Origin: Bacteroidaceae bacterium
Lineage (GTDB): Bacteria; Bacteroidota; Bacteroidia; Bacteroidales; Bacteroidaceae
Direction: 5' to 3'
Assembly (NCBI GenBank): GCA_017470425.1
Contig: JAFUYT010000001.1
Location: 1-64,000 of the forward strand
Length of the DNA stretch: 64,000 nucleotides
Of the stretch, positions 36,929 through 58,516 are shown one piece after another. Under the pieces are notes generated by a model. That model was not told the DNA's origin, made no database searches, and saw nothing but the letters and a program-made list of their open reading frames with translations. A program made the translations under genes and the position numbers. Numbering within the stretch: the stretch's first letter is position 1; the number at the start of each line of letters is the position of its first letter.

Positions 36929-37015
36929 CCCATTTCATCGGGGGAAAGCGCAAATGGACCAAATGGACCAGTCATAAGATTTTGTTTGGACTGGTTCATT
37001 TGTCCTCGTTATGGT

Positions 37016-37023
37016 TACCTTTG
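37016..37023 (+). promoter_or_regulatory. -7 box of the subtilisin gene
   Basis: TACCTTTG lies 36 bases ahead of the ATG at 37059 and overlaps the apparent upstream start at 37011, which is therefore rejected. Confidence 0.7.
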
Positions 37024-37058
37024 CACCCGCAAGACAACTAACCATAACAATAACATCT

Positions 37059-41411: not shown

Positions 41412-41420
41412 TTTTAACAG

Positions 41421-41497
41421 ACAACGAATTAGACGAATTAGACGAATTTCGGCATGACTTGGGAATCATTCGTATAATTGGTGTAATTCGTTGTGAT
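41421..41497. repeat. Long inverted repeat between protease and cohesin genes
   Basis: ACAACGAATTA and TAATTCGTTGT are exact inverted copies. Between them lie further GACGAATTA and ATTCGTATAATT copies that extend the pairing imperfectly. It could work as a terminator for the protease gene and overlaps the region expected to hold the next promoter. Confidence 0.6.
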
Positions 41498-41521
41498 AAG
41501 AACAAAAAAAAGACTCTGTAT

Positions 41522-44152
41522 ATGAATAAGATAATGTTTGTATTGGCCAGCGTGTTCCTGTGCTTCGGCATAGGAGCCAGGGCTGGCAATGTGGTCACGA
41601 TAGGCACGGTCAGCGGTGTGCCGGGCGACGAGGTGACGGTCAGCATCGGCCTCACAAACACGGATGCCGTTGCCGCCCTGCAGGTGCTGCTGCCACTGGG
41701 CGAACAGCTGAGCTACGTGGAAGGCTCGGTCGCGCTCGGCAGTCGTTGCAGCAGCCATAGCGTGACAGCGGGTGTGAAGGACGGAGCACTCAGCCTGATG
41801 ATTTACTCCCTGAACATGACGGCCTTCAGCGCGGGCGAAGGTGAGGTGGCTTCCTTCCGGCTGAAGCTGGGCAACCAGCCATCCGACATTGTGCTGGCCG
41901 CATCGAAAGTACTGCTGACCGACACCGACGGCAACAGCATCGCCGACGCCACGGCTACCGGCGGCAGCGTGAGCATACGCTGTGCACGGGCGCAGTACAG
42001 CACGACGAAAGTGGATTTCGGCAGCGTGCCCATACGCAGCACGTACCACCGGTCGGTGCAGGTGACCAATACGGGCAACGAACCGCTGACGATCTCCGGC
42101 CTTCAGTTCAGCAGCTATCCCACCCGCTTCTCCTCCGACACCTCATTCCCGCTGACCGTAGAGGCGGGCAGCAGCACCAGCATCGACATCCGCTATGAGC
42201 CCGATGCAAGGGGTACGGTGAAGGAGACGGTAAAGGTGGTGTGCAACAGCATCTCGAAGCTGAACAGCATCACGCTGGCGGCGCAGCCCTTTGCCGTGAA
42301 CGAGCTGCACATACAGCCCGCCGAGGGCCTCTCCGACGAGACGGTTACAGTTGCGATGACAATGAACAACATGGACGCCATCAGCGGCTTCCAGCTGGAG
42401 TTCACGCTGCCGGAGGCGCTGACCTACGTGACGGGCAGCTTCGCACTCTCCGGCCGCAAGCAGAACCACAGCGTGGTGGAGTCGCTATCGAACGGCACCC
42501 TGCGCATCCTCTGCTATTCCCCCGACGACACCGCCTTCACGGGCGAGGACGGCACGCTGGCCACGATGCAACTGCGGCTCACGGGGCGCAACAGTGCAAC
42601 GCTGAAGGCATCGAAGTGCCTGCTCACAGCCACCATCGACAACGTGGTGACCGATGTGTGTTCTGCCGACTACGGCGCCACCGTCACCATCCGAAGCCCA
42701 CGAATCAATGCCAACAACAAGCTGGAGATGGGAGCAACGCCCGTCACAGAGGATGCGATGTCCGCTCTCACGGTGCGCAACTACGGCAATGCACCGCTGA
42801 TCCTCAGCCGCGTGGTGTTTGCCGATGAAGGCTTCGCCATCAGCGAGGACCTGCCCGTGACAATCGAGGCATGGGGCTCGAAGGAGCTGACCGTGGTCTA
42901 TCCGAGCAAAACCGAGGGCGACTACTCCACGACGATGCACATCTACAGCAACGACCCGGAGCAGCGCCTGCTGGATGTCAGCGTGACCGGTAACCGCTTC
43001 GCGCCGAACTATCTGTCGTTCGCCGCGAAGGATGTCCTCGCGGGACAGGATGTGAGCGTGGATGTGTCGATGAGCAACTACGATGCCGTCAACGGCTTGC
43101 AGTTCGACGTGGAATATCCGTCGGACTACTACGAGCCCACCTCTGAGCTGACGACGACGGCACGGGCCGCAGGACTTACGGTGACCGAGCACAGCATCGC
43201 GACGAACACCGTCCGCTATTTCTTCTACTCCCTCAGCGATGCCGCCATAGCAGCGGGCGACGGCCAGATCCTCACCTTCACGCTCCACGCCAAAGGCAAT
43301 GCCCCGGAAGGTGAATATGCCCTCCAAGTGAAGAACATCATCCTTGGCACACCCGCGATGGCCAACAAATACGCTGGCGACATGACCGACGAGGTGACAT
43401 TTCAGGTCGTAGATAGGCTCACCATTGTTCTCGACGAGAACTCCACCGTGCCACCCGAGGCCAGCGACGGCGCAGTGAATGTGCGGATGAAGCGAACCAT
43501 CAAGGCCGGGGAGTGGAGCACCATCTGCCTGCCCTTCGCCATGACGACGTCACAGATGACAGCAGCCTTCGGCGAGGATGTCGAGCTGGAGGACTTCACG
43601 GGCGTAGAGGCAACCTACGATGATGCCGGGGAGAACATCATCGCCCTGACATTGAAATTCCGGGATGCCACCTCCATCGAGGCGAACCATCCTTATATCT
43701 TGAAGGTGTCGGAACCTGTAGCGGAGTTTACCGTGGAGGATGTCGTCGTTGAACCCGACGAGGCTGCTGTGAACTGCGACCGCATCGGGCAGGGAACGAT
43801 GAAAGACCCCTACCTCTACAACAGCTTCATCGGCACCTACGTCGCCCAGACAGAGCTCGCCGCTATGAAGCTCTTCCTCGATGACAACACGTTCTACTAC
43901 TCAACTGGACAGACCAAGATGCAAGCCTTCCGCGGCTACTTCGACTTCTACCACGTGCTGACCGCCGTGGAGGAGGCTCATTCCAAAGTGGTGATGGTCT
44001 TCAACATCGATGACGTAGCAACGGGCATAGAAGGAAGAACGAATGACGGAATGACAGGTGACGAATGTTTCGACCTCGCCGGACGTCGTGTGGCGAAGCC
44101 TCAGCAGCGCGGCCTGTATGTCATGGACGGACGAAAGGTCGTCGTGAAGTAA
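41522..44152 (+). CDS. T9SS surface protein with three cohesin-like domains
   Basis: The 876-residue protein has a signal peptide (MNKIMFVLASVFLCFGIGARA). Three similar beta domains follow at about 22-150, 275-395 and 495-620. Each opens with GxxGDEVTVSIGLTN, DETVTVAMTMNN or GQDVSVDVSMSN and carries LQVLLP, FQLEFTLP or LQFDVEYP, as in cohesin modules. DUF1573/ASH-like domains lie between them (VDFGSVPIRST, LEMGATPVTED). The tail FDLAGRRVAKPQQRGLYVMDG is a T9SS sorting motif. Cohesins bind dockerins with Ca2+, and the neighbouring protease has a dockerin-like pair. The ATG at 41522 is preferred because a signal peptide begins there. Confidence 0.8.
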   Translation: MNKIMFVLASVFLCFGIGARAGNVVTIGTVSGVPGDEVTVSIGLTNTDAVAALQVLLPLGEQLSYVEGSVALGSRCSSHSVTAGVKDGALSLMIYSLNMTAFSAGEGEVASFRLKLGNQPSDIVLAASKVLLTDTDGNSIADATATGGSVSIRCARAQYSTTKVDFGSVPIRSTYHRSVQVTNTGNEPLTISGLQFSSYPTRFSSDTSFPLTVEAGSSTSIDIRYEPDARGTVKETVKVVCNSISKLNSITLAAQPFAVNELHIQPAEGLSDETVTVAMTMNNMDAISGFQLEFTLPEALTYVTGSFALSGRKQNHSVVESLSNGTLRILCYSPDDTAFTGEDGTLATMQLRLTGRNSATLKASKCLLTATIDNVVTDVCSADYGATVTIRSPRINANNKLEMGATPVTEDAMSALTVRNYGNAPLILSRVVFADEGFAISEDLPVTIEAWGSKELTVVYPSKTEGDYSTTMHIYSNDPEQRLLDVSVTGNRFAPNYLSFAAKDVLAGQDVSVDVSMSNYDAVNGLQFDVEYPSDYYEPTSELTTTARAAGLTVTEHSIATNTVRYFFYSLSDAAIAAGDGQILTFTLHAKGNAPEGEYALQVKNIILGTPAMANKYAGDMTDEVTFQVVDRLTIVLDENSTVPPEASDGAVNVRMKRTIKAGEWSTICLPFAMTTSQMTAAFGEDVELEDFTGVEATYDDAGENIIALTLKFRDATSIEANHPYILKVSEPVAEFTVEDVVVEPDEAAVNCDRIGQGTMKDPYLYNSFIGTYVAQTELAAMKLFLDDNTFYYSTGQTKMQAFRGYFDFYHVLTAVEEAHSKVVMVFNIDDVATGIEGRTNDGMTGDECFDLAGRRVAKPQQRGLYVMDGRKVVVK

Positions 44153-44328: not shown

Positions 44329-45483
44329 ATGGTTAACAGATTTATCCTTAACGAAGTATCTTACTTCGGACCCGGAGCTCGCAAGGAGCTGCCCGGCGTG
44401 GTGAACCGACTCGGTTTCAAGAAGGCTCTCGTCGTTACAGACAAAGGGCTGATGCAGTTTGGCGTGGCAAAGATGGTGCTCGACGTGATGGACGAGGCTG
44501 GCATCGCCTACGACATCTTCGACGACGTGAAGCCCAACCCCACCGTGACGAATGTGAAAAACGGCATCGAGGCCTGCCAACGTGCTCAGGCAGATTTCAT
44601 CGTAGCCATTGGCGGCGGCTCGTCGATGGACACGGCCAAGGGCATCGGCATCGTGGTGAACAACCCCGAGTTTGCCGACATCGTCTCGCTCGAGGGCGTC
44701 GCCAACACGAAAAAGAAGGCACTGCCCATCATTGCGCTGCCCACGACGGCCGGCACAGCAGCCGAGACGACCATCAACTACGTCATCATCGACGAGACGC
44801 GGCAGGCTAAGATGGTATGCGTGGATCCCAACGACATTCCTTGTGTCGCCATCATCGATGCCGAGCTGATGTACTCTCTGCCTAAGAGCCTCACCGCAGC
44901 TACGGGTATGGATGCCATGACGCACGCCATCGAAGGCCTCATCACGAAGGCTGCATGGGAGCTCTCTGATATGTTCGAGGTGAAGGCTATTGAGATGATC
45001 TACAAGTACCTGCCTCTGGCCGTCAGCGAGCCTACGAACCCTGTCGGGCGCGATGGCATGGCCGTGGCTCAGTATGTCGCCGGCATGGCCTTCTCGAACG
45101 TAGGCTTAGGCGTAGATCATGGCATGGCTCACCCGCTGTCAGCCCTCTTCGACGTTCCCCACGGCGTGGCTTGCGCCATGCTACTGCCCACGGTGATGCG
45201 CTTCAATATGCCTGCCGCAAAAGAGAAGTACGTAGAGATTGCCAAGGCCTGCGGCGTCTATGAGGCAGGCATGACCACCGATGAGGCTGCCGAGGCAGCC
45301 TGCAAGGCCATTGAGAGCCTGAGCGCCCTCGTGGGCACCAACAAGCGTCTCACCGATCTTGGCATTGAGGAGAAGGACATCGAAGCCTTGGCCGAGCAAG
45401 CTATCAACGATGTCTGCACGCCAGGCAATCCCCGTCCCGTGACGAAGCAGGACATCATAGATCTCTACCACCAGATCCTGTAG
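44329..45483 (+). CDS. fucO: Lactaldehyde reductase / iron-containing alcohol dehydrogenase
   Basis: FucO reduces L-lactaldehyde, from fucose or rhamnose breakdown, to propane-1,2-diol using NADH. The 384-residue protein has the NAD loop AIGGGSSMDTAKGIGI, then PTTAGTAAETT, and the metal site: Asp in DAELMYSLP, His in MDAMTHAIEG, the GVDHGMAHPLSALFDVPHGVACAMLLP segment. N-terminal VNRFILNEVSYFGPGA matches FucO more closely than other members. No fucose or rhamnose genes flank it; it stands alone with its own promoter and terminator hairpin. Confidence 0.9.
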   Translation: MVNRFILNEVSYFGPGARKELPGVVNRLGFKKALVVTDKGLMQFGVAKMVLDVMDEAGIAYDIFDDVKPNPTVTNVKNGIEACQRAQADFIVAIGGGSSMDTAKGIGIVVNNPEFADIVSLEGVANTKKKALPIIALPTTAGTAAETTINYVIIDETRQAKMVCVDPNDIPCVAIIDAELMYSLPKSLTAATGMDAMTHAIEGLITKAAWELSDMFEVKAIEMIYKYLPLAVSEPTNPVGRDGMAVAQYVAGMAFSNVGLGVDHGMAHPLSALFDVPHGVACAMLLPTVMRFNMPAAKEKYVEIAKACGVYEAGMTTDEAAEAACKAIESLSALVGTNKRLTDLGIEEKDIEALAEQAINDVCTPGNPRPVTKQDIIDLYHQIL

Positions 45484-45540
45484 GCAACAGTTTTCCCCCG
45501 ACGAACCTGTAAGCGGGCAAGCGACACATCCGCTATCATT

Positions 45541-45583
45541 TTAAGGCAGGCCTGGCAGCACTATAGCTGCTGGCCTGCCTTAA
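45541..45583. terminator. Hairpin after fucO
   Basis: TTAAGGCAGGCC and GGCCTGCCTTAA are exact inverted copies, with GCAGC/GCTGC pairing inside. There is no T-run. It lies 58 bases after the fucO stop. Confidence 0.65.
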
Positions 45584-45653
45584 CTATCACACCTCCACGC
45601 CGAGAGCCAGCGCCTGCGTGTGCCGGTCATCAAGGTAGATTACAAGCTGTAAG

Positions 45654-45887
45654 CTAATCGTTTGTCGGTACGATGCTTTCGCCCTCGTAATAGCGCACCA
45701 GCAGGGCTTTCACGCCCACCATCAGGCGGCTTTGAAGGAGGGTGGCACGGCTCTGGAGAAGGGTGGCGGCAAGGGTGTGGCGGGCAGCCCGAACGTATAG
45801 TGTCGTGGCTGCGATCAGCAGGAAGAGTGCTCCAACTCTCTTAAGTTGATTGATTATTCCTTCATGATGGAATGATTGTTCCGTCAT
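45654..45887 (-). CDS. Possible small membrane protein
   Basis: A 77-residue frame from the ATG at 45887 has one hydrophobic segment (VGALFLLIAATTLYVRAA) and a repeated TLLQSR sequence. A leftward TACCTTTTG at 45990-45998 would serve it. No family was recognised and its 5' end is made of the 22-bp repeat, so it may be spurious. Confidence 0.3.
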   Translation of the reverse strand: MTEQSFHHEGIINQLKRVGALFLLIAATTLYVRAARHTLAATLLQSRATLLQSRLMVGVKALLVRYYEGESIVPTND

Positions 45888-45921
45888 GATGGAATGATTG
45901 TTCCATGATGATGGAATAATC
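45862..45921. repeat. GATGGAATGATTGTTCC repeats
   Basis: Two identical 21-base copies of TCATGATGGAATGATTGTTCC-type sequence occur with a 22-base period, followed by a third partial copy. Confidence 0.8.
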
Positions 45922-45989
45922 AAGGCTCCTATATGGGTTGGGCAGAAGGTTTAGGTGTGTGACATGATACGAATCGCTGTTTAGGGCTG

Positions 45990-45998
45990 CAAAAGGTA
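45990..45998 (-). promoter_or_regulatory. Weak leftward -7-like box
   Basis: The leftward strand reads TACCTTTTG, one T longer than consensus. It may serve the small minus-strand frame at 45654-45887. Confidence 0.35.
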
Positions 45999-46062
45999 AG
46001 CATTTCCTCTAAAGAAAACTTAAATTCTTTATCGGAATGGCTTATATTTCACTATATTTATA

Positions 46063-46070
46063 TATATTTG
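46063..46070 (+). promoter_or_regulatory. -7 box of the porin-NRPS-MATE operon
   Basis: TATATTTG lies 38 bases ahead of the ATG at 46109 and downstream of the upstream in-frame start at 46037, which is therefore rejected. It is the only clear promoter seen before the NRPS. Confidence 0.6.
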
Positions 46071-46108
46071 TGGCCGCGTTATGGAATGTCAAACAAGAGA
46101 ACAGTAGG

Positions 46109-47551
46109 ATGAAGCATAAAAGAAACTTCATGAACAGGGACACCAGTCTGACCGCTATCATCGCAGCAGCATTGCTGGAGGATAGTTGTCACTACGTGAT
46201 AAGACTCTTTGCCGCGGCGTCATTCTTGATGGTGTCTGGCAGCATTTGGGGACAGAACGATTCTCTGGCCAGTGACCAGCGCGTGGCGCTGCAACCTGTC
46301 AAGAAGAACCAGCTCGGCTTCAGCATGAATCTGCTGACGCACGGCGAGATCTGTAGCGGCGGGCTGCCCCGGAACGCCAATGCCAGCCCTGGAGAGGACC
46401 ACTCCCGTTTCCTCTCCGGGCGCTTGCGTCTGAACGTGGACTACCAGCGCTCCGGCCTGCAGGCCCACGCCATAGTCCAAAACTCTGCGATATGGGGCAG
46501 CAAAAGCAGCAATAGCCTGACGCTGTATGAGGGGTGGGCGAAGATAACGGCCAAATTCGGCCTCTTCGCGCAGGTGGGCCGTATCGCCCTGGCCTACGAC
46601 GACGAGCGTATCATCGGCCCCAACGATTTTGCCACGGCAAGCAAGTCCCACGATCTGGTACGTGTGGGCTACGAGGGTCACGGACATCAGGTCCATGCGC
46701 TGCTGGCCTTCAACCAGAACGGGCCCTACAACGGCACTTATTATGAAGACGGGTCGCAGCTGTACAAGTCCATGCAGACGCTGTGGTACCACTACGATGT
46801 GCCGAAGGTTCCCCTGGGTGCCTCGCTGCTCTTCATGAACATCGGGCAGCAGGCAGGCGTCCAGGGCGACGCGTACAACCCGCCCTCCACACAATATCAG
46901 CAGATGTATGGCGCCTACGTCAAATACCATCCCAGATACCTGACCCTCGAGGCATCGTATTACCGTCAGTCGGGCAAGGTGGTCAACGAGTTTCAGCAGA
47001 CCGGCTCCATCAAGGCTTGGATGGCCAGCGTGAGAGCCAGCGTCAGACCTTTCGACAAGTTCGGCTTCCTGCTGGGCTACGACTACCTGAGTGGTGATGA
47101 CTATGTGCCTGTCATCCACGGCGGTACGCTGGGCCTGGCTCGCCACGAGACCGTGAAGGGCTTCACCCCTCTGTACGGCTCACGCACCAAGTTCTACGGC
47201 CTCCTGGACTACTTCTACGAGAGCGCCTACATCAACGGCTTCACGCCCGGACTGCAGAATCTCTTCGCAGGAGGCCAGTTCTATCATAAGGGCAAGTTCA
47301 TGTGCAGCGCCACCTACCACTATCTGGCCACTGCCGCAGCGCTCCCGGACCTCGGCCGCACACTCGGACACAGCGTCGAGCTGCAGGCCAGCTATCAGTT
47401 TACCAAGGATATCCTTCTCGTGGCCGGTTACACACAGATGCACGGCACCGAGACGATGAACCGTCTGAAGCAAGGCAGCTCCACGGGCCGCGCCCTCTGG
47501 GGATGGTTCTCGCTGGTTGTCTCCCCAACTCTATTTACCGCAAAATTCTAA
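46109..47551 (+). CDS. Outer-membrane porin-like barrel
   Basis: The 480-residue protein has an extended N-terminus with a signal-like hydrophobic segment (LFAAASFLMVSGSIWG, cleavage near WGQ), then alternating strands. Segments such as GRLRLNVDYQRSGLQAHAIVQN, LYEGWAKITAKFGLFAQVGRIALAYDDERI and LTLEASYYRQSGKV recall alginate-export/porin-type barrels. The C-terminal strand ends LVVSPTLFTAKF. The NRPS starts 6 bases after its stop, so they share a transcript; a role in outer-membrane passage of the NRPS product is inferred. Confidence 0.75.
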   Translation: MKHKRNFMNRDTSLTAIIAAALLEDSCHYVIRLFAAASFLMVSGSIWGQNDSLASDQRVALQPVKKNQLGFSMNLLTHGEICSGGLPRNANASPGEDHSRFLSGRLRLNVDYQRSGLQAHAIVQNSAIWGSKSSNSLTLYEGWAKITAKFGLFAQVGRIALAYDDERIIGPNDFATASKSHDLVRVGYEGHGHQVHALLAFNQNGPYNGTYYEDGSQLYKSMQTLWYHYDVPKVPLGASLLFMNIGQQAGVQGDAYNPPSTQYQQMYGAYVKYHPRYLTLEASYYRQSGKVVNEFQQTGSIKAWMASVRASVRPFDKFGFLLGYDYLSGDDYVPVIHGGTLGLARHETVKGFTPLYGSRTKFYGLLDYFYESAYINGFTPGLQNLFAGGQFYHKGKFMCSATYHYLATAAALPDLGRTLGHSVELQASYQFTKDILLVAGYTQMHGTETMNRLKQGSSTGRALWGWFSLVVSPTLFTAKF

Positions 47552-47557
47552 ATCGAC

Positions 47558-50500
47558 ATGAAAACCTACGCACCTTTAACCAAAACGCAGTACGGCCTCT
47601 ATGTGGAATGTGTCAATCACCAGGGAGAGGTCTGCTATAATATACCTTATTTATATACTCTGGACGGCAGTCTGGATGGAGAGCGGCTATGCAAAGCCAT
47701 CGAGACCGTCGTGGCTGCCCATCCGACGCTGTTCACCCGCATCGAGGTGGACGAGCAGGGCGACCCTGTGCAGACGATCGACGATGCGGAGAGGTTCTCG
47801 CTGACCGTGGAGAGCGTGAGTGACATCGAGGCTGAGAAGGCACGATTCGTTCAGCCGTTCAGCATCGTGGGCGACCGTTTGTTCCGCATCCGTCTGTTGA
47901 AAGATGCTTCACACTACTACCTGCTACAGGACATCCACCATATCATCAGCGACGGCACATCGCGCAAGGTGCTCCTTACGGATATCGAGAAAGCCTATCA
48001 CGGCGAACAGTTAGAGGCTGAGGCACTGCCGCTGGCCGAAGTTGCCAAGGCTGAGGCAGCAGTGCGCGAGACCCCGCAGTTCGAGGAGGCCAAGAAATGG
48101 TATGGCGAGAACTTTGACTGCGGAGACACCGACTCACCGCTGTTAGGAGACCTGGAGGAAGATGGACCTAAGGAGGGACTGCTGACCCGCACGATGAGTG
48201 TGGGCACCGATGCTGTCGATGCCTTCTGTAAGGACAATGGCATCTTCAAGAGCACTTTCTTCACGGCCGCCTATAGTGTCCTCCTGGCCAAGTACAACAA
48301 TGAGCAGGAAGTGCTGTTCAGCACCATCCACAACGGCCGCGCCGACAAGCGTCTGGCACATGCCGTCGCGATGCTCGTGAAGACACTGCCCGTATATGCC
48401 AAATTTGCAGACGACACGACGGTACTTGATTTCCTACGTGCCGGACAGGATCAGATGACTGGATGCCGGCAACATGAGGCCTACGCCTACAGCGATGTGG
48501 TGAACGACTTAGGTCTGCGGCCTGCCACCACGTTTGCATGGCACGGACCGCTCTTTGACAGCCTCCGGTTTGACGGTAAGGCGATGACGGCACAGCGCCT
48601 GAACAACAACACCATCGAGGTGCCGCTCTATGTGAAGGCATACGTCCGCGACGGCCACTACTGTGCAGAGGCAGAGTACGACGGCGGCGTGTATAGCGAA
48701 GCACTGATCAGTCAGTTTCTGGAGAGCTACGAGGCGGTCGTGGAGGGATTCCTCGCCAAGGAGAGGCTGGCGGATATTGCCATCGCCACGCCCTCGCAGA
48801 TGAACCTGCTCGACTCGTTCAATCAGAACGACGTCGATTACGACCGCTCGCAGACCATCGTCTCCCTGTTCCGCCGTCAGGCAAAGGCTACGCCCGACAA
48901 GACGGCCGTCGTCTTTAAGGACAAACGGTTTACGTATGCCGAACTGGACGATATCAGCGACCGCATCGCAGGATACATCGCCGGCAGGGGCTTGGGCTTG
49001 GAAGATATTGTAGCCGTCCTGATTCCCCGCTCGGAGTGGATGGCCATCGCCTCGCTGGGCGTCATCAAGGCTGGCTGCGCGTTCCAGCCATTGGATCCGA
49101 CATACCCGAAGGAGCGTCTGAACTTCATGATGCAGGATACCGGCACCCGGCTGCTGATAGCCGACGAGGAACTGCGTCCGATCGTTGATGAATACGATGG
49201 CGAGGTCTTGTTGACCAAGGACCTGCTGCAGTGTGCTGCTACTGATTCGCTGCCGGCAGAGCCGAAACCCGAGAGCCTCTTCACGCTCATCTACACCTCG
49301 GGCTCCACGGGTGTGCCGAAGGGCGGTATGTCGGAACACCGGAACTGGGTGGCGTTCTGCCACATGCACCAGCAGTTCAATAACATCACGGCTGCGAGCA
49401 AGGTGGCAGCCTACGCCAGCTATGGTTTCGATGCCTCGCCGATGGAAATCTTCTCGGCCCTCACCATTGGTGCCGAGCTGCATATCGTCCCCGAGGAATT
49501 GCGTCTTGACCTCATCGCCCTAAACGACTATTTCGAGCAGAACGCAATCACCCACGGCTTTATGACTACGCAGGTAGCCTATCAGTTTGCCACCAGTATC
49601 GAGAACCACTCGCTGCAGGCGCTCATGACAGGCGGCGAGAAGCTGTCAACGCTGACGCCGCCCAAGACCTACAGCCTGACGAATGGCTATGGCCCATCTG
49701 AGACGATCTGCTATGTCACCGCCTACAAGGTGACGGAGCGGATGAAGAATATTCCTATCGGTCCTGCCATGCAGAACTGCCGGCTGTACATCGTTGACCC
49801 GCAAGGGCATCGCCTGCCCGTGGGTGCTGCCGGTGAGCTATGGGTGGCAGGGCCGCAGGTCAGCCGTGGCTATCTGAACCGCCCGGAGAAGACGGCAGAG
49901 GTATATATACCGAATCCGTTCGCGACAGAAGAGAAATATGCCCGCGTCTATCGCACGGGCGACATCGTGCGCTACCTGCCAGACGGCAACATCTCGTTTG
50001 TAGGCCGCCGGGACGGACAGGTGAAGATTCGCGGCTTCCGCGTCGAACTGAAGGAAGTGGAGGCCGTCGTCCGTGAGTTCCCCGGCATCAAGGACGCTAC
50101 CGTGCAGGCTTTCGACGAGCAGGGCGGCGGTAAGTTCATTGCGGCCTACGTCGTCAGCGACGAGCCGATAGACATCGAGGCGCTGAACAGCTTCATCCTC
50201 GACCAGAAGCCGCCTTACATGGTGCCGGCCGTGACGATGCAGATTGACGCCATCCCGCTGAACCAGAACCAGAAGGTGAACAAGCGCGCACTGCCGAAGC
50301 CGGAGAAGAAGGCCGCTGCTGTAGAGGAGTCGGATGTGCCGATGAACGTGCTGGAACAGGAGTTGCACGAGATGATTGCCGCCATCGTCGGTAACACCGA
50401 TTTCGGCATCACTACCGTCTTGGGCTATGCCGGACTCACCTCTATCTCTGCCATCAAGCTGGCCGTGCAGGTGAATAAGCGCTTCGGCGTAACCCTCGAC

Positions 50501-53500
50501 TCAAAGTCGTTGGTGAAGACGGGTACGCTGCAGAGCATCGAGAATGAGATCATCTGCGAGATGCTCAATGGACAAACGGCTGCGCCAAAGGAGGGTGACA
50601 CCAATAGCTGTCAATTAGAGAGCGTCCCGCTCTCCTACGCCCAGACGGGTGTCTATTTCGAGTGTCTGAAGAATCCCACTTCGACCATTTATAACATCCC
50701 CTGTCTGCTCAGCTATCCCGCAGGCATAGAAGCCGGCAGACTGGCCGATGCGGTAAGGACGGTTGCGGAGGCTCACCCGGAACTGAGTGTTCACTTCGCC
50801 ACAGAGGGAGACCGCATCGTCCAGACCCTGGCCGGCAGTGTACCGGTGGAGGTGCCCGTCACAGAGATGACAGACGAGGCATTGGCAGACTATAAGACCG
50901 CCTTCGTCCGTCCGTTCAACTTGCAGAAGCCGCCGCTCTACCGCTTCGAGGTGGTGAAGACCGAAAGCGGGACGCATCTATTGACGGATGTCCACCACTT
51001 AGTGTTCGACGGTGGCTCCACCGACTTGTTCATCCGTCAGATTGCCAGTGTGCTCGACGGCGCCCCCGTCGAGAAAGAGACCTACACCTACTTTGATTTC
51101 GTAGCCGACCAGCAGAAGGCTGAAGAAAGCGACACGTTCAAGTCTGCACAGCACTTCTTCGCCGAGAAGCTGCAGACCTGCGAGGGTGCCAGCGAGATTC
51201 CTGCCGACATGCCCCAGACAGACCAGCAGGGGTTCATCGCTGAGGCCGTCTGCCCCACCGACCTCGACAAGGCCACCGCTTTCTGCCGTCAGCAGAATAT
51301 CACGCCGGCCCATCTGTATCTGGCTGCAACGAGCTACGTCGTCTCGCGCTACACCAACAACCGCGAAGTGTATCTGAGCACGATCAGCAGCGGACGCTCC
51401 AACCTGAGGATTGCCGACACGGTGGGTATGTTTGTCAACACCCTGGCCTTAGCCATGAAGATCGACGATGTGACGGTGGCCGACTACTTGCACGAGGTCA
51501 GCGAGACCTTCGACGAGACGCTGCGCCACGAGGACTATCCCTTTGCCCGCATTGCCGGCGACTATGGCTTCCGCCCCGCCATCTGCTACGAATATCAGGT
51601 GGGGGTGGTGTCGGAATACACCGTCGGAGGCAAACCCGTCGGCCACGAGGTCCTGGAGCTGAACGTACCGAAGTTCAAGATCAGTGTCAAGATCCTGACT
51701 GACGGCATCAGGGTGCAATATGACGATGCTGCTTACACAGCGGAGCTGGCACAGGGCCTGGCCGACAGCATTGCCGCCACCGTAGAACACATCATCGCTC
51801 ATCCCGAGGGCAAGGTGCGCAAGCTGTCCATCGTCAGCGCGGCACAGGAGGAACACCTGAACCACATCCGCCAGACGGCCACGGGCGATGCTCCGTTCAA
51901 GGTGTTCTGCGACTGTTTTGCCCACTATGCCCAGACACAGCCCGACCGCATGGCACTCATCGGCTGCGACGCCCGGTTCACCTATCGCGAGTTCGACGAG
52001 ATGACCTCACGTATCGCAGGAGCACTGCAGACGCTGGGCGTACAGCCGCGTGACCGCGTGGCCCTGCTGCTGCCGCGTACCAGCCGGCTCATCCTCTCGA
52101 TGTTCGGCGTGCAGAAGGCCGGAGCTGCCTACATACCCTGCGATCCCGAATATCCTGCCGACCGCATCAAGCTCATCCTGGAGGACAGCGAGGCCCGCTT
52201 CATCATCACTACCGCCGACCGTCTCGACAGCGTGCCGGCCGGCAAGGGTATCGACGTGGAGACCCTCGTCTCGTCGGATGCTGCACTGACGCCTGTCGAT
52301 ATCACTCCCGACGACCTTGCGTATCTCATCTACACCAGCGGCTCTACAGGCCGACCGAAGGGAGTGATGCTGCGTCACGAAGGCATGTGCAACTACGCTA
52401 CCCCGCTGCCCGCCAATGTCGAGGCCTACGCTGTGGCAAATGCAGCAGACAGCATACTGGCAGTCACCACCATCTCCTTTGATGCCTCGCTCCACGAGAT
52501 CGCCATCTCGCTCTTCAACGGCCTCACACTGGTGGTGGCCAACGAGAATCAGACGAAGAACCCGCTCGATATGGCCGCCCTCATCCGCGAGCACCACATT
52601 GGCTATGTGTCGGCTACGCCTTCGCAGTGGCAGACATGGATCTACAGCGATGACTTCGTAGAGGCGATCCGCACCGTTCCCATCATCCGCTTCGGCGGCG
52701 AGAAGCTGCCCGAGAGTCTGCTCCACCAGATGCAGCAGCTGACACCGTCGCGCATACTGAACACCTACGGGCCTACCGAGACGACCGTCTCCTCGAACAT
52801 CCAGGAGCTCACCCATGCAGAGCGCGTCACGGTGGGTCGTCCGCAGCTGAATGTCAAGGAGTTTGTGGTTGACAGCGACGGCAACGAGCTGCCGGTAGGT
52901 GTCGTTGGCGAGCTGTATATCGGAGGCCGTGGCGTGGCTCGTGGCTACAACAACCTCGACGAGATGACGCGCGAGCGTTTCATCGACTATCACGGCACAC
53001 GCATCTACAAGTCGGGCGACTATGCCAGGTGGCTCCCCGACGGCGACGTGGCCATCCTCGGACGTACAGACCACCAGATCAAGTTACGCGGCCTGCGCAT
53101 CGAGCTGGGTGAGGTGGAGAACGTCATTGCCCGTGTAGAAGGTGTGAAGAATGTCGTCATCATGATCCGTAAAATATCAGGCAAGGAGCATCTCTGTGCC
53201 TACTTCACCGCCGACCATCCTATCGACATTGCCGAGATGAAGGCTGAGATCAGCAAAAGCCTCACGCAGTATATGGTGCCTACCGCCTACCTGCAACTCG
53301 ACAAAATGCCGATGACCCCTAATGGCAAGACAGACATCAAGGCTCTGCCCGACCCCGAGCTGGCGGTCAGCAGCGAATACGAAGCACCCCAGAACGATGC
53401 CGAACGCACCTTCTGCGACATCTTTGCCGATATCCTGCAGATGGACAAGGTGGGAGCCACCGACAACTTCTTCGACCTTGGCGGAACGTCGCTCGTCGTC

Positions 53501-54838
53501 ACCCGCGTCATCATCGAGGCTGACAAGGCAGGACTGCACGTGTCCTATGGCGAGGTATTCGCCAACCCCACACCACGCAAGCTGGCTCTGCTGACGACTG
53601 GCGGCGCAGCTCCCGCCGGTTCATCCGACGGGACCCCGTCAGCCACTCCCGACCCCGTAGCCGACTTCGACTACACCGCCATCAACAACCTCTTGCAGCG
53701 CAACACGCTGGGCTTCTTCCGTGCAGGCGAGCGTCAGCAGTTAGGCAACGTGCTGATTACCGGAACCACGGGCTATCTGGGTATTCACATCCTGCGCGAG
53801 TTGATTGACTCAGATGCAGGAAACATCTATTGCATGGTACGTGGCAAGACCCTGGCAGCCGCAGAGAGCCGTCTCCGCACCATGCTCTTCTACTATTTCG
53901 ACAGCCCTTATGAGGAGCTGTTCGGAAAGCGGCTGCATGTTGTCCTCGGCGATGTCACCAACGACCTTTGTGGTGTGCTCAACGGTTATGCCATTGACAC
54001 TGTCTTCAACTGCGCCGCCGTCGTCAAGCACTTCTCTGAAGGCACGGAGATTGAAGACGTCAACATCGGGGGTGCGCAGCGATGTGTAGAGTTCTGTATC
54101 AAGACAGGTGCCAGACTCATCCACATCTCCACCGCCAGCACACGCGGCCTGTGGGCTGGCGAGATCAAGAATGAAATCTTCTCCGAGCAGCGCCTCTATA
54201 TGGGGCAGTATCTGGGCAATCAGTATATCTATTCTAAGTTCATGGCCGAACGGCTGATCCTTGACGCCGTTGCCCTCCACGGCCTGTCCGCAAAGATCAT
54301 GCGAGTGGGTAATCTCGCTGCCCGCTCCACCGACGGCGAGTTCCAGGCGAACTTCAGCACCAACTCGTTCATGGGACGTATCCGCGTGTATAACATGCTG
54401 GGCTGTTGCCCGTATGGTATGCGCAACAAGCGTGTGGAGTTCTCGCCTATCAACGAGGTGGCTCGCGCCATTGTGCTGCTGAGCGCTACGCCTGAGGAGT
54501 GCACCGTGTTCCATCCGTATAACATACACGGCCAGTTCCTCGGCGATGTGCTCTCTGCCTTGACAGTCGTCACGGGAGGCATCCGCTTCGTCGAGCAGGA
54601 AGAGTTCCAGCAGGCGATGGATGAGGCCGGGAAAGACCCACAGAAAGCCAAGCAGATGGCTGCTTTGTTGGCCTACAAGGACATGGCCCACGGGAAGAAG
54701 ACGACCGACGTGCAGCGTGACAACGACTACACCACGCAGGTGCTCTATCGCCTCGGCTTCAGTTGGAGTCCCACTTCATGGGACTATATTGAACGTATGC
54801 TCACTGCCATCGGCGGCTTCGGATTCTTCGAATATTAG
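47558..54838 (+). CDS. Two-module NRPS with terminal thioester reductase (C-A-T-C-A-T-R)
   Basis: The 2426-residue synthetase starts with a condensation domain (1-430, HHIISDG near 127). A1 (431-915) has YTSGSTGVPKG and NGYGPSET; T1 carries its Ser in AGLTSIS (near 961). C2 (1023-1445) has HHLVFDG near 1147; A2 (1450-1945) has YTSGSTGRPKG and NTYGPTETT; T2 has DNFFDLGGTSLV (near 1975). The reductase R (2060-2426) has the NADPH site LITGTTGYLG and YIYSKFMAE. The leading C domain implies N-acylation of the first residue and R implies release as an aldehyde. Pocket residues read by alignment to GrsA: A1 D-A-M-F-M-G-G-C-Y, like branched aliphatic codes; A2 D-A-H-S-R-G-T-V-S, unassigned. No phosphopantetheinyl transferase lies in the window. 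Confidence 0.95.
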   Translation: MKTYAPLTKTQYGLYVECVNHQGEVCYNIPYLYTLDGSLDGERLCKAIETVVAAHPTLFTRIEVDEQGDPVQTIDDAERFSLTVESVSDIEAEKARFVQPFSIVGDRLFRIRLLKDASHYYLLQDIHHIISDGTSRKVLLTDIEKAYHGEQLEAEALPLAEVAKAEAAVRETPQFEEAKKWYGENFDCGDTDSPLLGDLEEDGPKEGLLTRTMSVGTDAVDAFCKDNGIFKSTFFTAAYSVLLAKYNNEQEVLFSTIHNGRADKRLAHAVAMLVKTLPVYAKFADDTTVLDFLRAGQDQMTGCRQHEAYAYSDVVNDLGLRPATTFAWHGPLFDSLRFDGKAMTAQRLNNNTIEVPLYVKAYVRDGHYCAEAEYDGGVYSEALISQFLESYEAVVEGFLAKERLADIAIATPSQMNLLDSFNQNDVDYDRSQTIVSLFRRQAKATPDKTAVVFKDKRFTYAELDDISDRIAGYIAGRGLGLEDIVAVLIPRSEWMAIASLGVIKAGCAFQPLDPTYPKERLNFMMQDTGTRLLIADEELRPIVDEYDGEVLLTKDLLQCAATDSLPAEPKPESLFTLIYTSGSTGVPKGGMSEHRNWVAFCHMHQQFNNITAASKVAAYASYGFDASPMEIFSALTIGAELHIVPEELRLDLIALNDYFEQNAITHGFMTTQVAYQFATSIENHSLQALMTGGEKLSTLTPPKTYSLTNGYGPSETICYVTAYKVTERMKNIPIGPAMQNCRLYIVDPQGHRLPVGAAGELWVAGPQVSRGYLNRPEKTAEVYIPNPFATEEKYARVYRTGDIVRYLPDGNISFVGRRDGQVKIRGFRVELKEVEAVVREFPGIKDATVQAFDEQGGGKFIAAYVVSDEPIDIEALNSFILDQKPPYMVPAVTMQIDAIPLNQNQKVNKRALPKPEKKAAAVEESDVPMNVLEQELHEMIAAIVGNTDFGITTVLGYAGLTSISAIKLAVQVNKRFGVTLDSKSLVKTGTLQSIENEIICEMLNGQTAAPKEGDTNSCQLESVPLSYAQTGVYFECLKNPTSTIYNIPCLLSYPAGIEAGRLADAVRTVAEAHPELSVHFATEGDRIVQTLAGSVPVEVPVTEMTDEALADYKTAFVRPFNLQKPPLYRFEVVKTESGTHLLTDVHHLVFDGGSTDLFIRQIASVLDGAPVEKETYTYFDFVADQQKAEESDTFKSAQHFFAEKLQTCEGASEIPADMPQTDQQGFIAEAVCPTDLDKATAFCRQQNITPAHLYLAATSYVVSRYTNNREVYLSTISSGRSNLRIADTVGMFVNTLALAMKIDDVTVADYLHEVSETFDETLRHEDYPFARIAGDYGFRPAICYEYQVGVVSEYTVGGKPVGHEVLELNVPKFKISVKILTDGIRVQYDDAAYTAELAQGLADSIAATVEHIIAHPEGKVRKLSIVSAAQEEHLNHIRQTATGDAPFKVFCDCFAHYAQTQPDRMALIGCDARFTYREFDEMTSRIAGALQTLGVQPRDRVALLLPRTSRLILSMFGVQKAGAAYIPCDPEYPADRIKLILEDSEARFIITTADRLDSVPAGKGIDVETLVSSDAALTPVDITPDDLAYLIYTSGSTGRPKGVMLRHEGMCNYATPLPANVEAYAVANAADSILAVTTISFDASLHEIAISLFNGLTLVVANENQTKNPLDMAALIREHHIGYVSATPSQWQTWIYSDDFVEAIRTVPIIRFGGEKLPESLLHQMQQLTPSRILNTYGPTETTVSSNIQELTHAERVTVGRPQLNVKEFVVDSDGNELPVGVVGELYIGGRGVARGYNNLDEMTRERFIDYHGTRIYKSGDYARWLPDGDVAILGRTDHQIKLRGLRIELGEVENVIARVEGVKNVVIMIRKISGKEHLCAYFTADHPIDIAEMKAEISKSLTQYMVPTAYLQLDKMPMTPNGKTDIKALPDPELAVSSEYEAPQNDAERTFCDIFADILQMDKVGATDNFFDLGGTSLVVTRVIIEADKAGLHVSYGEVFANPTPRKLALLTTGGAAPAGSSDGTPSATPDPVADFDYTAINNLLQRNTLGFFRAGERQQLGNVLITGTTGYLGIHILRELIDSDAGNIYCMVRGKTLAAAESRLRTMLFYYFDSPYEELFGKRLHVVLGDVTNDLCGVLNGYAIDTVFNCAAVVKHFSEGTEIEDVNIGGAQRCVEFCIKTGARLIHISTASTRGLWAGEIKNEIFSEQRLYMGQYLGNQYIYSKFMAERLILDAVALHGLSAKIMRVGNLAARSTDGEFQANFSTNSFMGRIRVYNMLGCCPYGMRNKRVEFSPINEVARAIVLLSATPEECTVFHPYNIHGQFLGDVLSALTVVTGGIRFVEQEEFQQAMDEAGKDPQKAKQMAALLAYKDMAHGKKTTDVQRDNDYTTQVLYRLGFSWSPTSWDYIERMLTAIGGFGFFEY

Positions 54839-54840
54839 AT

Positions 54841-54868
54841 GAATGGTCAACGCTCAATGGTCAATGTA
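54841..54868 (+). repeat. AATGGTCAAcgCTCAATGGTCAATG repeat
   Basis: Two imperfect copies of AATGGTCAA fill the spacer between NRPS and MATE genes. The spacer is short and has no terminator. Confidence 0.6.
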
Positions 54869-54875
54869 TTAAACG

Positions 54876-56213
54876 ATGAGTAAGGACATCTCATTCAATA
54901 CCGAGTACTGGCGCTTCCTCTGGTCCTCCATCCTGATTGCCCTATCGGCATGTCTCGGCAATGTCGTGGACTCTGTCATCGTCGGAAACCTGATTGGCGA
55001 GGACGGCGTCAGTGCCATCAACCTCTCAAAGCCCGTCACACAGTTCATGTTCACCATCAGCATGCTGCTCTCTACGGGAGCAGGTATGCTCGTGGGTATG
55101 GAACTGGGCAGGAAGGACTACCGGCGAGCCTCCTACATCTTCACCCTTTCCACCATCGGCTGTCTGGCTTTCGGTATGTTGCAGACGGTGGCAGGCCTGT
55201 TCTTCACCGACGACATCACCCGATGGTTTTGTACCCACGAACAGCTCCTCGCCGCCACGCGCGACTACCTCTTTCCGCTGATGATGGGTGCGCCTGCCTA
55301 TATGATGTCGTGGGCACTGGCCACGATGGTGGGTGTCGATGGCAGCCCGCGCCTCGTCTCCGCGGCCATCCTCATCGACAATGCCGTCAACCTCTGTTGC
55401 GACATCATTTTCATCCAGTGGTTCGGGTGGGGCATCGAGGGCTCATCGACAGCCACCGTCATCGGCCACATCGTAGGCATCGCCTTCATGTGCTGGCACT
55501 TCCGCTATCCCGATCATCACCTGCAAATGGCCTTTGCGGGCGGGAAGGCAGGGGCAACCTTCAGGGCGATGGTCTCTCAGGGTGCGCCCTTGGCACTGGC
55601 CTCCATCAGCCTCACAGCACTCCTCTTCTGTGCCAACAGCATCGTGCTCTCTACCATGGGGCGGACGGGCATCTTCGCATTCTCCGTCTGCATGAACATC
55701 CTGTATATCTACAATCTCTTCCTCTCAGGCACCTGCCGTACCGTTCAGTCGCTGGGCTCCATACAGGTGGGAGGGGGGGACAATGAGAAGTTCCGCCTCG
55801 TCATCAGCAAGTCATTCCGTTTCATCACCGTCGCCATGCTGACGACATGTGCCTTCATCTGGATAGCACCCGAAGCCGTCACCCGCTTCTTCGGCGCTGA
55901 CGAAGGGGATATGATAGCCGAAGGAGTCCGCGCCTTGCGCATCTTCGCCCTCAGCTTCATCCCCTTCTGCTATATCTATACCGCCATGGTCGTCTATAAG
56001 CTCTACGGCTATCACACCATCGCCCTCTTCATTTCCCTGGCTCTCTCGCTGACCGTCATTCCCGTCCTGTGGGTCATCTCCCTTACAGCCCCCGACTACC
56101 TCTGGTACAGCTACCTCATCGCCTACGCCATAGAGGCCGTCGCCATCCTTGTGCTCCACAAAGTGACACATGCCCGCTTTCAGCTTAAGTCCTCAGACAT
56201 GCCGCCTGCATAA
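54876..56213 (+). CDS. MATE family efflux transporter
   Basis: The 445-residue multi-pass inner-membrane protein has two six-helix halves. The N-half shows ACLGNVVDSVIVGNLIGEDG and LLSTGAGMLVGMELGRKD; the C-half has GTCRTVQSLGSIQVGGGDNEK and FFGADEGDMIAEGVRALRI. MATE proteins export small cationic or amphipathic compounds in exchange for Na+ or H+. It starts 37 bases after the NRPS stop on the same strand and is followed by a strong terminator, which marks it as the last gene of the cluster and probable exporter of its product. Confidence 0.92.
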   Translation: MSKDISFNTEYWRFLWSSILIALSACLGNVVDSVIVGNLIGEDGVSAINLSKPVTQFMFTISMLLSTGAGMLVGMELGRKDYRRASYIFTLSTIGCLAFGMLQTVAGLFFTDDITRWFCTHEQLLAATRDYLFPLMMGAPAYMMSWALATMVGVDGSPRLVSAAILIDNAVNLCCDIIFIQWFGWGIEGSSTATVIGHIVGIAFMCWHFRYPDHHLQMAFAGGKAGATFRAMVSQGAPLALASISLTALLFCANSIVLSTMGRTGIFAFSVCMNILYIYNLFLSGTCRTVQSLGSIQVGGGDNEKFRLVISKSFRFITVAMLTTCAFIWIAPEAVTRFFGADEGDMIAEGVRALRIFALSFIPFCYIYTAMVVYKLYGYHTIALFISLALSLTVIPVLWVISLTAPDYLWYSYLIAYAIEAVAILVLHKVTHARFQLKSSDMPPA

Positions 56214-56221
56214 TATAAAAA

Positions 56222-56262
56222 TTTTACTGCAAGCTCTTTTTCCACAAGAGCTTGCAGTAAAA
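56222..56262. terminator. Bidirectional terminator between MATE and metG
   Basis: A perfect 17-bp stem (TTTTACTGCAAGCTCTT with its complement) closes a 7-base loop. It has a T-run or A-run at both ends, so it can stop both convergent transcripts. Confidence 0.9.
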
Positions 56263-56293
56263 AAAGGTATAGGAGTGTAGGTCTAATGGGGTA

Positions 56294-58516
56294 TTACCCG
56301 ACCTGCGAGCCGGGCTTCACGTCTTTGGTCGTTGTCACCACGCTCAGACTCTCGTCGAAATCCACGGCTGAGAGGATCATGCCCTGGCTCTCGAGACCCA
56401 TCATCTGGCGCGGCTCGAAGTTGGCCACGAAAAGGATGCGCTTGCCGATGAGCGCCGACGGGTCCTCGTAGAAGGCGGCAATGCCCGAGAGAATAGTGCG
56501 GTCCTTGCCGGTGCCATCGTCGATAGTAAACTGCAACAGCTTCTTGCTCTTCTTCACCTTCTGGCAGTCCTTGATGAGACCCACGCGGATGTCGAGTTTT
56601 TCGAAAGCCTCAAAGCTGACGTTGGGCTTGGCCCCCCGTGGCCCCCCAGCGGGGGGCGTTTGCTGGCTGCCTGCCTTATTATCCCCCGCCGGGGGATTAC
56701 AGGGGGCCTGCGCCTTTGCATTTTCCTTCTTGATGCGTGCGAGGCGGTCCATCTGCTTCTGAATGGCCTCGTCCTCGATCTTCTCGAAGAGCAGTTCGGG
56801 CTTGGCCAGCTGATGGCCGGCGGGCAGGAGGTCGGTGCTGCCGAGGCGGGACCACAAAAGCCCCTCTCCCCGCTCCCCCCGTGGGGGGGAGAGCCGCACT
56901 GCCGTGTCTTTCTTTTCCTCAGAGGATAAGGAGTCCTCCCCCCCACGGGGGGAGTTAGAGAGGGGCCCGACTCTAAGCATCTCCCTAAGCTTCTTGCTGC
57001 TGAACGGCAGGAAAGGCTCGAAGGCGATGGCGAGGTTGGCGGTCAGCTGGAGCGAGATGTTGATGATGGTCTTTACGCGCTCGGGGTCGGTCTTGATGAC
57101 CTTCCACGGCTCGCTGTCGGCGAGGTATTTGTTGCCGATGCGGGCAAGATTCATGGCCTCCTTCTGTGCGTCGCGGAAGCGGAAGTTGTCGAGCAGGCTC
57201 TCCATTTTGCATTTTACATCCGCAAACTCGCTGAGGGTTTGTCGGTCGTAGTCGGTCAGCTCGCCGCAGGCGGGCACGACGCCCTCGTAGTACTTCTGCG
57301 TCAGCTGCAGGGCGCGGTTTACGAAGTTGCCGTAGATGGCCACGAGTTCGTTGTTGTTGCGCGCCTGGAACTCCGCCCAGGTGAAGTCGTTGTCCTTGGT
57401 CTCGGGAGCCGAAGCGGTGAGGGCATAGCGCAGGACATCCTGCTTGCCGGGGAAATCGACGAGGTACTCATGGAGCCACACGGCCCAGTTGCGGGAGGTG
57501 GAGATCTTGTCGCCCTCAAGGTTCAGGAACTCGTTGGCGGGCACGTTGTCGGGCATGATGTAGCCGCCGTGCGCCTTCATCATCACGGGGAAGATGATGC
57601 AGTGGAAGACGATGTTGTCCTTTCCGATGAAGTGTACGAGGCGCGTGTCCTCGTCCTGCCACCAGCGTTGCCACGTGCCCCAGCGTTCGGGGTTGCTCTC
57701 GCAGAGCTCCTTGGTGTTGGAGATGTAGCCGATGGGGGCGTCAAACCAGACGTAGAGCACCTTGCCGTCGGCACCTTCAACGGGGACGGGTATGCCCCAG
57801 TCGAGGTCGCGCGTCATGGCACGGGGCTGCAGCTCCATGTCGAGCCAGCTCTTGCACTGCCCGTAGACATTCGAGCGCCACTCCTTGTGTCCTTCCAGAA
57901 TCCACTCCTTCAGCCAGCCCTCGTAGTCGTTCAGGGGCAGGAACCAGTTGGTGGTGTCCTTCAGCACGAGCTGTGCGCCGCTCTCCTTGGAGCGCGGGTT
58001 GATGAGCTCGGTGGGGTCGAGGTCGCGGCCGCATTTCTCACACTGGTCGCCGTTGGCTTCGTTGTGGCAGTGGGGACATTCGCCCACGATGTCGCGGTCG
58101 CTCTTGAAGGTGCCTGTTGTCTCGTCGTAGAACTGTTTCGTGGTCTTCTCAATGAGCTTACCATCGTCGTAGAGCTTGCGGAAGAAGTCAGCGGCGAACT
58201 GGTGGTGCGTCGCACTCGTGGTACGGGAATAGACGTCGAATGAGATGCCGAACTCCTCGAAGGAGTCCTTGATCATCTTGTGGTAGCGGTCCACCACCTG
58301 CTGCGGAGTGATGCCCTCCTTACGGGCGCGCTGGGTGACGGGGACGCCGTGCTCGTCAGAGCCGCCGATGAACATCACCTCCTCGCCCTTCAAGCGCAGG
58401 TACCTTACATAAATGTCCGCAGGCACATACACACCCGCGAGGTGGCCGATATGCACGCCGCCGTTGGCGTATGGCAGGGCAGACGTGACGGTTGTTCTCT
58501 TGAAATTCTTTGCCAT
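56294..58516 (-). CDS. metG: Methionyl-tRNA synthetase with two palindromic insertions
   Basis: MetG charges tRNA-Met. The 740-residue protein has the class I core with [17 protein letters not shown] (HIGH) and [12 protein letters not shown] (KMSKS variant KISTS), a zinc knuckle region ([16 protein letters not shown]), the anticodon-binding domain and a C-terminal tRNA-binding OB-fold (from about 630, [14 protein letters not shown]). Two low-complexity runs interrupt linkers: one after KKLREMLR (about 518-552) and one after KKENAKAQ (about 600-628). Both are encoded by palindromic DNA. Domain cores remain intact, so activity is expected. Confidence 0.96.
56641..56697. repeat. Palindromic insertion A in metG
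   Basis: Two stem-loops lie side by side: GCCCCCC/GGGGGGC (56641-56657) and ATCCCCC/GGGGGAT (56681-56697). They encode the Pro-Pro-Ala-Gly strings between the anticodon-binding and C-terminal OB domains. Confidence 0.85.
56860..56966. repeat. Palindromic insertion B in metG
   Basis: The 107-base element is bounded by exact 9-base inverted ends (GCCCCTCTC and GAGAGGGGC). Each side holds a G/C palindrome (CTCCCCCC with GGGGGGAG, at 56873-56891 and 56936-56954). Bases 56862-56878 match the dapB element at 16 of 17 positions. Confidence 0.85.

Follow-up and report, generated by a model that had tools for sequence, protein, structure and literature searches.

What does a two-module nonribosomal peptide synthetase (NRPS) make when its gene lies between those of an outer-membrane barrel and an exporter, and how would the product leave the cell? 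The question is raised by a stretch of 64,000 nucleotides, called here the window, from a metagenome-assembled genome (MAG; 72% complete) of a Bacteroidaceae bacterium (GenBank assembly GCA_017470425.1, contig JAFUYT010000001.1, positions 1 to 64,000). With moderate confidence, we read its barrel, NRPS and MATE genes as a biosynthesis-and-efflux operon for a small product of the protease-inhibitor type. The row recurs in related Bacteroidales, and most close relatives carry ahead of it a putative regulatory gene pair that is absent from the window.

The three genes (positions 46196-56213) are intact open reading frames (ORFs) on the plus strand, separated by 6 and 37 bases, so the tight spacing described in the initial annotation stands (Table 1). 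Pfam places two Condensation (C), two AMP-binding (adenylation, A), two PP-binding (carrier, T) and one NAD_binding_4 (reductase, R) domain on the NRPS, and all 21 core-motif strings searched for were found, in agreement with the C-A-T-C-A-T-R order proposed earlier for this protein. Seven homologues at 54 to 75% identity were aligned with the sequence from the window, and all eight keep the two HHxxxDG motifs, the two carrier serines and Y2223 and K2227 of the R domain unchanged. The nearest solved R domain, compared over that domain alone, is 6vtj/6vtz (9e-66, residues 3-371 of 372), which we take to be mru_0351 of the rumen methanogen Methanobrevibacter ruminantium. The aureusimine synthetase AusA likewise has two modules and a terminal R domain, which matches that of the window at 9.8e-33 (4f6c), but it is organized as A-T-C-A-T-R, with no leading C domain. 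The search for a phosphopantetheinyl transferase that had been recommended returned a single gene in the incomplete genome, encoding a 188-residue protein outside the cluster (L001), which from its motif we presume to be Sfp-like.

Table 1. Positions of the three-gene row, the domains of its synthetase and the flanking features in window coordinates
Feature	Position	Strand	Detail
FucO-like Fe-dependent dehydrogenase, lactaldehyde-reductase-type	44329-45483	+	Upstream of barrel; above NCBI lactaldehyde reductase cut-off
-7-like box	46063-46070	+	TATATTTG; fits Bacteroidetes TAnnTTTG; putative promoter element only
Outer-membrane beta-barrel, AlgE/OprD-like	46196-47551	+	ORF opens at 46037; GTG 46196 favored start
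Two-module NRPS, C-A-T-C-A-T-R, 2,426 aa	47558-54838	+	ORF, Pfam, motifs, alignment
C1 condensation	47564-48817	+	HHIISDG at residue 127; presumed acylating starter
A1 adenylation	48848-50287	+	Code DAMFMGGCY, aliphatic-type pocket
T1 carrier	50339-50557	+	GLTSIS, Ser962
C2 condensation	50618-51859	+	HHLVFDG at residue 1146
A2 adenylation	51917-53347	+	Code DAHSRGTVS, Arg1711 at 299 position
T2 carrier	53408-53587	+	LGGTSL, Ser1978
Terminal reductase R	53747-54835	+	TGTTGYLG, Y2223xxxK2227; nearest solved chain 6vtj_A
MATE-family exporter	54876-56213	+	MatE Pfam
Hairpin, 17 pairs	56222-56262	-	T-tract on minus strand
MetRS gene	56294-58516	-	Convergent with three-gene row

Residues of the adenylation pockets, at positions that we assume from GrsA (including position 299), were checked by eye against LgrA alignments. 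The aliphatic-type pocket of A1 suggests that Leu, Ile, Val, Met or a similar residue is loaded, and to that extent the branched aliphatic residue suggested earlier for module 1 is supported. The Arg previously noted in the module 2 pocket is present as Arg1711; its location at position 299 suggests an acidic side chain, so that the residue formerly left unassigned may be Glu or Asp, as in ruminopeptin. Arg occupies the same position in 60 of 95 rows of related synthetases with near-duplicates counted, or 56 of 91 without them, and the code DAQSRGCVA is found in 55 of the 60.

The product that we predict, and would on balance expect, is an N-acyl-aliphatic-acidic dipeptide aldehyde that exits through the MATE exporter and the barrel; a reductively released and probably N-acylated dipeptide had been proposed before and is supported by the intact R and leading C domains. 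The Sfp-like transferase would arm T1 and T2. C1, as an intact leading domain, would acylate, probably with a fatty acid, the aliphatic residue loaded by A1 on T1; A2 would load, less certainly, the residue facing Arg1711, and C2 would form the dipeptide. The R domain, with NAD(P)H, would then release it, given the active site observed, and probably as the aldehyde rather than the alcohol. The MATE protein could carry the product over the inner membrane and the barrel could provide the outer-membrane route, as their co-localization and the predicted fold suggest.

Both transport genes named in the initial annotation hold up. The GTG start at 46196 of the barrel gene matches the starts of relatives and gives an N-terminus that by eye resembles a signal peptide. 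The predicted model has an AlgE/OprD-like fold with AlgE as its best match, at 13% identity and with a lead of just 1.6 Z units over OccD2 and MOMP. The barrel thus shares the fold of the AlgE and OprD/Occ channels but differs in its low identity and in its score against PF13372 (Alginate_exp), which is 18.1 bits in the window, below the gathering score of 25.2, and 26.5 bits for the barrel of relative L042. The net charge of 17 barrel sequences ranged from -5 to +11 with no pattern. For the MATE protein, PF01554 gave 95.9 bits, above its gathering score of 24.9, and the NCBIfam model TIGR00797 gave 131, short of its 147.4.

Conservation of the row supports the pairing of both transport genes with the NRPS. 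A scan of a named genome collection returned at least 466 stretches encoding an NRPS relative at E 1e-3 or better; the best 80 of these were fetched, so the counts below lean to close relatives. By their titles, the 80 come from Prevotella, Prevotellaceae, Muribaculaceae and other Bacteroidales, many from rumen, omasum or abomasum. The survey comprises 97 distinct NRPS genes, that of the window included, after removal of 4 near-duplicates from 101; the same-genome pairs L048/L158 and L049/L105, for example, were reduced as duplicates. NRPS frames of fewer than 2,300 or more than 3,600 residues were excluded, which leaves out copies cut off at contig ends. We define a close clade of 56 NRPSs, again including the window's, that are at least 66% identical to it. 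Among its members with enough flanking sequence, 41 of 49 have the barrel gene immediately before the NRPS, 47 of 53 have a MATE gene no more than 2 kb after it, and 36 of 48 show the full row. For 35 more distant synthetases, of which 22 qualified by their flanks, the figures are 7 of 22 for the barrel directly upstream, 1 of 22 for MATE downstream and 15 of 22 for a STAS gene. The order and the short gaps recur across dozens of species and are, on the sequence evidence, more than chance.

A second search started from the barrel. Among 301 genomes of the family, matches at 1e-60 were found in 33, and 20 of the 34 matches were fetched; two of these loci, L182 and L187, resemble L125 and L094 of the earlier set. 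Eleven of the 20 adjoin an NRPS gene (2 of 2 in the genus of the window and 9 of 18 in other genera, the latter from six genera). The remaining nine include three whose contigs measure no more than about 6 kb, one with SpoIIE and STAS genes and no NRPS (L189), and five barrels (L192-L196, 39 to 45% identity) with none of the three. At 46% identity or more, 15 of 18 barrels adjoin an NRPS (101 genomes, window included); the exceptions are L073, L074 and L075, and L075 lies near the end of its contig.

The A domains of the relatives also vary. In 23 of 95 rows, A2 resembles the A1 of its own protein (median identity 70%, range 54 to 92%); these A2 domains have median identities of 66% to A1 and 35% to A2 of the window. 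Judged from these identities, such an A2 is an A domain copied between modules. Examples are L053, L056, L057 and L058, where a natural exchange of the A domain between C2 and T2 can be seen. A MATE gene lies downstream of 45 of 52 synthetases with the Arg pocket and of 0 of 15 with an A1-like A2; among the latter, a barrel gene precedes the synthetase in 6 of 14. Of the other pockets, DMKN has MATE downstream in 3 of 3 and DAEG in 0 of 2 (MATE is upstream in 2 of 2), and three single rows with other codes have it downstream in 0 of 3.

Several observations weigh against an export operon for the predicted product. In the close clade, the barrel is not directly upstream in 8 of 49 members, and in 6 of 53 no MATE gene follows within 2 kb; two of the six have one at about 4.5 kb. 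SpoIIE-STAS-barrel rows exist without an NRPS (L074:5579-9465 and L189:9677-13583), and in 4 of the 22 distant NRPSs an SNF sodium symporter occupies the barrel slot between STAS and NRPS. The barrel model has a pLDDT below 50 for 100 of 451 residues, the pocket codes, read with no reference set, are weak evidence, and comparison of C1 with solved structures did not distinguish a starter from an ordinary C domain. The link between the A2 pocket and MATE was rejected as independent proof, since on the R-domain tree it amounts to a single clade contrast, with one independent pair.

The alternative that survives best, although we consider it doubtful, is that the barrel is a porin that takes up peptides or precursors and that MATE alone exports the product. 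SNF symporters are a family of importers, so the slot in which they replace the barrel might be one for import and not for export. Barrel and MATE are also uncoupled among the synthetases with an A1-like A2, and OprD/Occ uptake channels are near fold matches of the barrel. On the other side, the best fold match, AlgE, is an exporter, if by the small margin given above, and the clade of the window mostly keeps barrel and MATE together in the full row. The SNF symporter was seen in the barrel slot at L060, L061, L068, L149, L155 and L156.

We give less credence to a product that keeps its amine. If C1 were non-acylating or skipped, a free-amine dipeptide aldehyde could cyclize to a pyrazinone, as in aureusimine or phevalin. 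An acyl cap takes away the free amine that this cyclization needs, so cap and pyrazinone are mutually exclusive, and the pyrazinone offered in the initial annotation as an equal alternative is incompatible with the acyl cap proposed alongside it. The best whole-protein match of the NRPS in NCBIfam is the aureusimine synthetase model (NF047350), and gut dipeptide aldehydes have been isolated as pyrazinone by-products, according to the available part of one report (PMC12327764). However, the score of 1124.9 bits falls short of the model's cut-off of 2500, and the leading C domain is intact, with an invariant HHxxxDG.

Similarly improbable is reduction to an alcohol, by the R domain or by the FucO-like dehydrogenase encoded upstream on the same strand, which would leave no aldehyde protease inhibitor. 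Some R domains do reduce twice. The upstream enzyme, however, scores above the cut-off of the NCBI lactaldehyde reductase model, and no same-strand FucO homologue appeared within 7 kb upstream or 6 kb downstream of the other 96 survey genes, many of which have shorter flanks. The five relatives from the same genus that match FucO at 1e-100 and also match the NRPS strongly (G002, G005, G016, G027 and G034) carry the two on separate contigs. FucO is thus disfavored as a cluster gene, given its lack of linkage to the NRPS in the survey and in same-genus relatives. Weakest, and very improbable, is the reading that the NRPS has a general porin on one side and a multidrug MATE on the other by chance: both families are common and the five barrels at 39 to 45% identity have no NRPS in their stretches, but the near-constant order, the short gaps in dozens of species and the 15 of 18 closer barrels beside an NRPS disfavor ordinary co-localization.

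The export operon that we favor is, in most close relatives, preceded by two more genes. STAS is present upstream in 45 of 49 members of the close clade with enough flank, and SpoIIE in 42 of 49 (window included in both). The SpoIIE protein of L042 combines a Cache sensor domain, a SpoIIE phosphatase and a HATPase domain, and the STAS protein is of the anti-sigma-antagonist type. By its domains, this pair is a partner switch; it stands at the head of the row and probably controls it. The pair is seen at L042:4496-7032 and at equivalent positions in most close relatives, with near-constant spacing to the barrel and NRPS genes.

A tblastn search of the window with 6 SpoIIE and 4 STAS references revealed neither gene, not even as a remnant (chance-level matches, best E 0.65). 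On a rapidly built tree of 90 R-domain rows, the window belongs to a supported group of eight (97*), and STAS is missing from just two of these, the window and L109. This pattern suggests loss of the switch in these lineages, or its relocation to a part missing from the incomplete MAG. Two STAS matches exist elsewhere in the genome, one beside a SpoIIE-type frame of 808 residues on contig C21 and one within a frame of 579 residues on C18, and the C21 pair could act in trans. The cluster had been called self-contained; its phosphopantetheinyl transferase is encoded elsewhere, an acyl donor is needed and the SpoIIE-HATPase/STAS pair is absent. Since most relatives carry the switch, the term describes an exception.

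How much of this is new? Dipeptide-aldehyde NRPSs of the gut are already known, as in ruminopeptin (rup) and its kin from gut Firmicutes (e.g., BGC0001686), which yield N-acyl dipeptide aldehydes, ruminopeptin being N-acyl-Leu-Glu aldehyde. The class predicted here is alike (N-acyl, aliphatic, acidic, aldehyde), a likeness of described products, whereas the host order is Bacteroidales, an outer-membrane barrel and a MATE gene are present, and relatives add the partner switch. The characterized gut dipeptide-aldehyde clusters are from Clostridium and Ruminococcus, as far as the available parts of the sources go. A rumen survey lists 5,346 NRPS clusters, with no product stated for those of Bacteroidota in the part available (PMC8241843), and in the available part of a phylum survey Bacteroidia are rated low for natural products (PMC9248904). 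SypE and SypA of Vibrio fischeri offer a parallel for the switch, SypE being described in the accessible text as a dual serine kinase/phosphatase that acts on a STAS protein (PMC8256260); the relatives' protein likewise fuses a SpoIIE phosphatase and a HATPase domain next to a STAS gene, but it adds a Cache sensor and neighbors an NRPS operon, and the window lacks the pair. A literature search, mainly of titles and abstract starts, found no published description of an NRPS cassette linked to a barrel and a partner switch. The apparently new part is the Bacteroidales family linked to both.

More speculatively, this would be a cassette, spread over several genera within one Bacteroidales family, in which a Cache switch controls the making of N-acyl-aliphatic-acidic dipeptide aldehydes that leave across two membranes by a path of their own, through MATE and the AlgE-like barrel, and target Glu/Asp-specific proteases of competitors or the host. 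Copying of A1 into A2 and swaps of transporters would change the product, and the window would have been freed from the switch. What the locus brings forward is a conserved family, many of its members from ruminant forestomachs, that has an outer-membrane channel in the operon; it offers a concrete product hypothesis and a case for the secretion of NRPS products by Gram-negative gut bacteria.

The boundaries of the row are less clear than its content. Of the overall picture drawn in the initial annotation, the three-gene row, the domains and the module 2 Arg remain, and the single promoter and strong terminator said to bound them do not. Upstream there is just the -7-like box, which fits what we take to be the Bacteroidetes consensus, with no TTTG or TTG at the spacing expected of a -33 element; a sigma70-type scan of positions 44500-58000 gave three sites, all on the minus strand. 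The downstream hairpin scored as terminator-like only on the minus strand, an A-run following the stem on the plus strand, and its T-tract therefore suits the end of the convergent MetRS gene rather than that of the three-gene operon. It may also halt plus-strand transcription, though it is not a canonical terminator of the operon. Among 60 relatives searched for an empty site, 14 have a FucO match at 1e-100, 13 of them with MetRS as well. The two matches never share a contig, and the comparison therefore gave no evidence that the cluster was inserted between these genes.

Several minor features of the relatives and flanks were also recorded. A PaaK/FlxY-like adenylate-forming ligase, which might supply an aryl or acyl starter, follows the NRPS at L043:13384-14736 and in L047, L059, L102, L106, L117, L141, L150, L178 and L190. 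AMP-ligase matches with equal scores at G000 C23:128751-129806 and C24:51506-52561 perhaps mark a duplicated stretch of the assembly. Synthetases of 2,814 to 3,499 residues occur in L055, L060, L064, L117, L133 and L144, and in L055, L133 and L144 the gene is preceded by one for an MFS transporter. In L184 the NRPS is broken into frames of 609 and 1,834 residues, between an intact-looking barrel and MATE, by a frameshift or a sequencing error. Farther upstream in the window, positions 37011-44152 encode a subtilase of 1,466 residues and an 897-residue protein with a cohesin domain.
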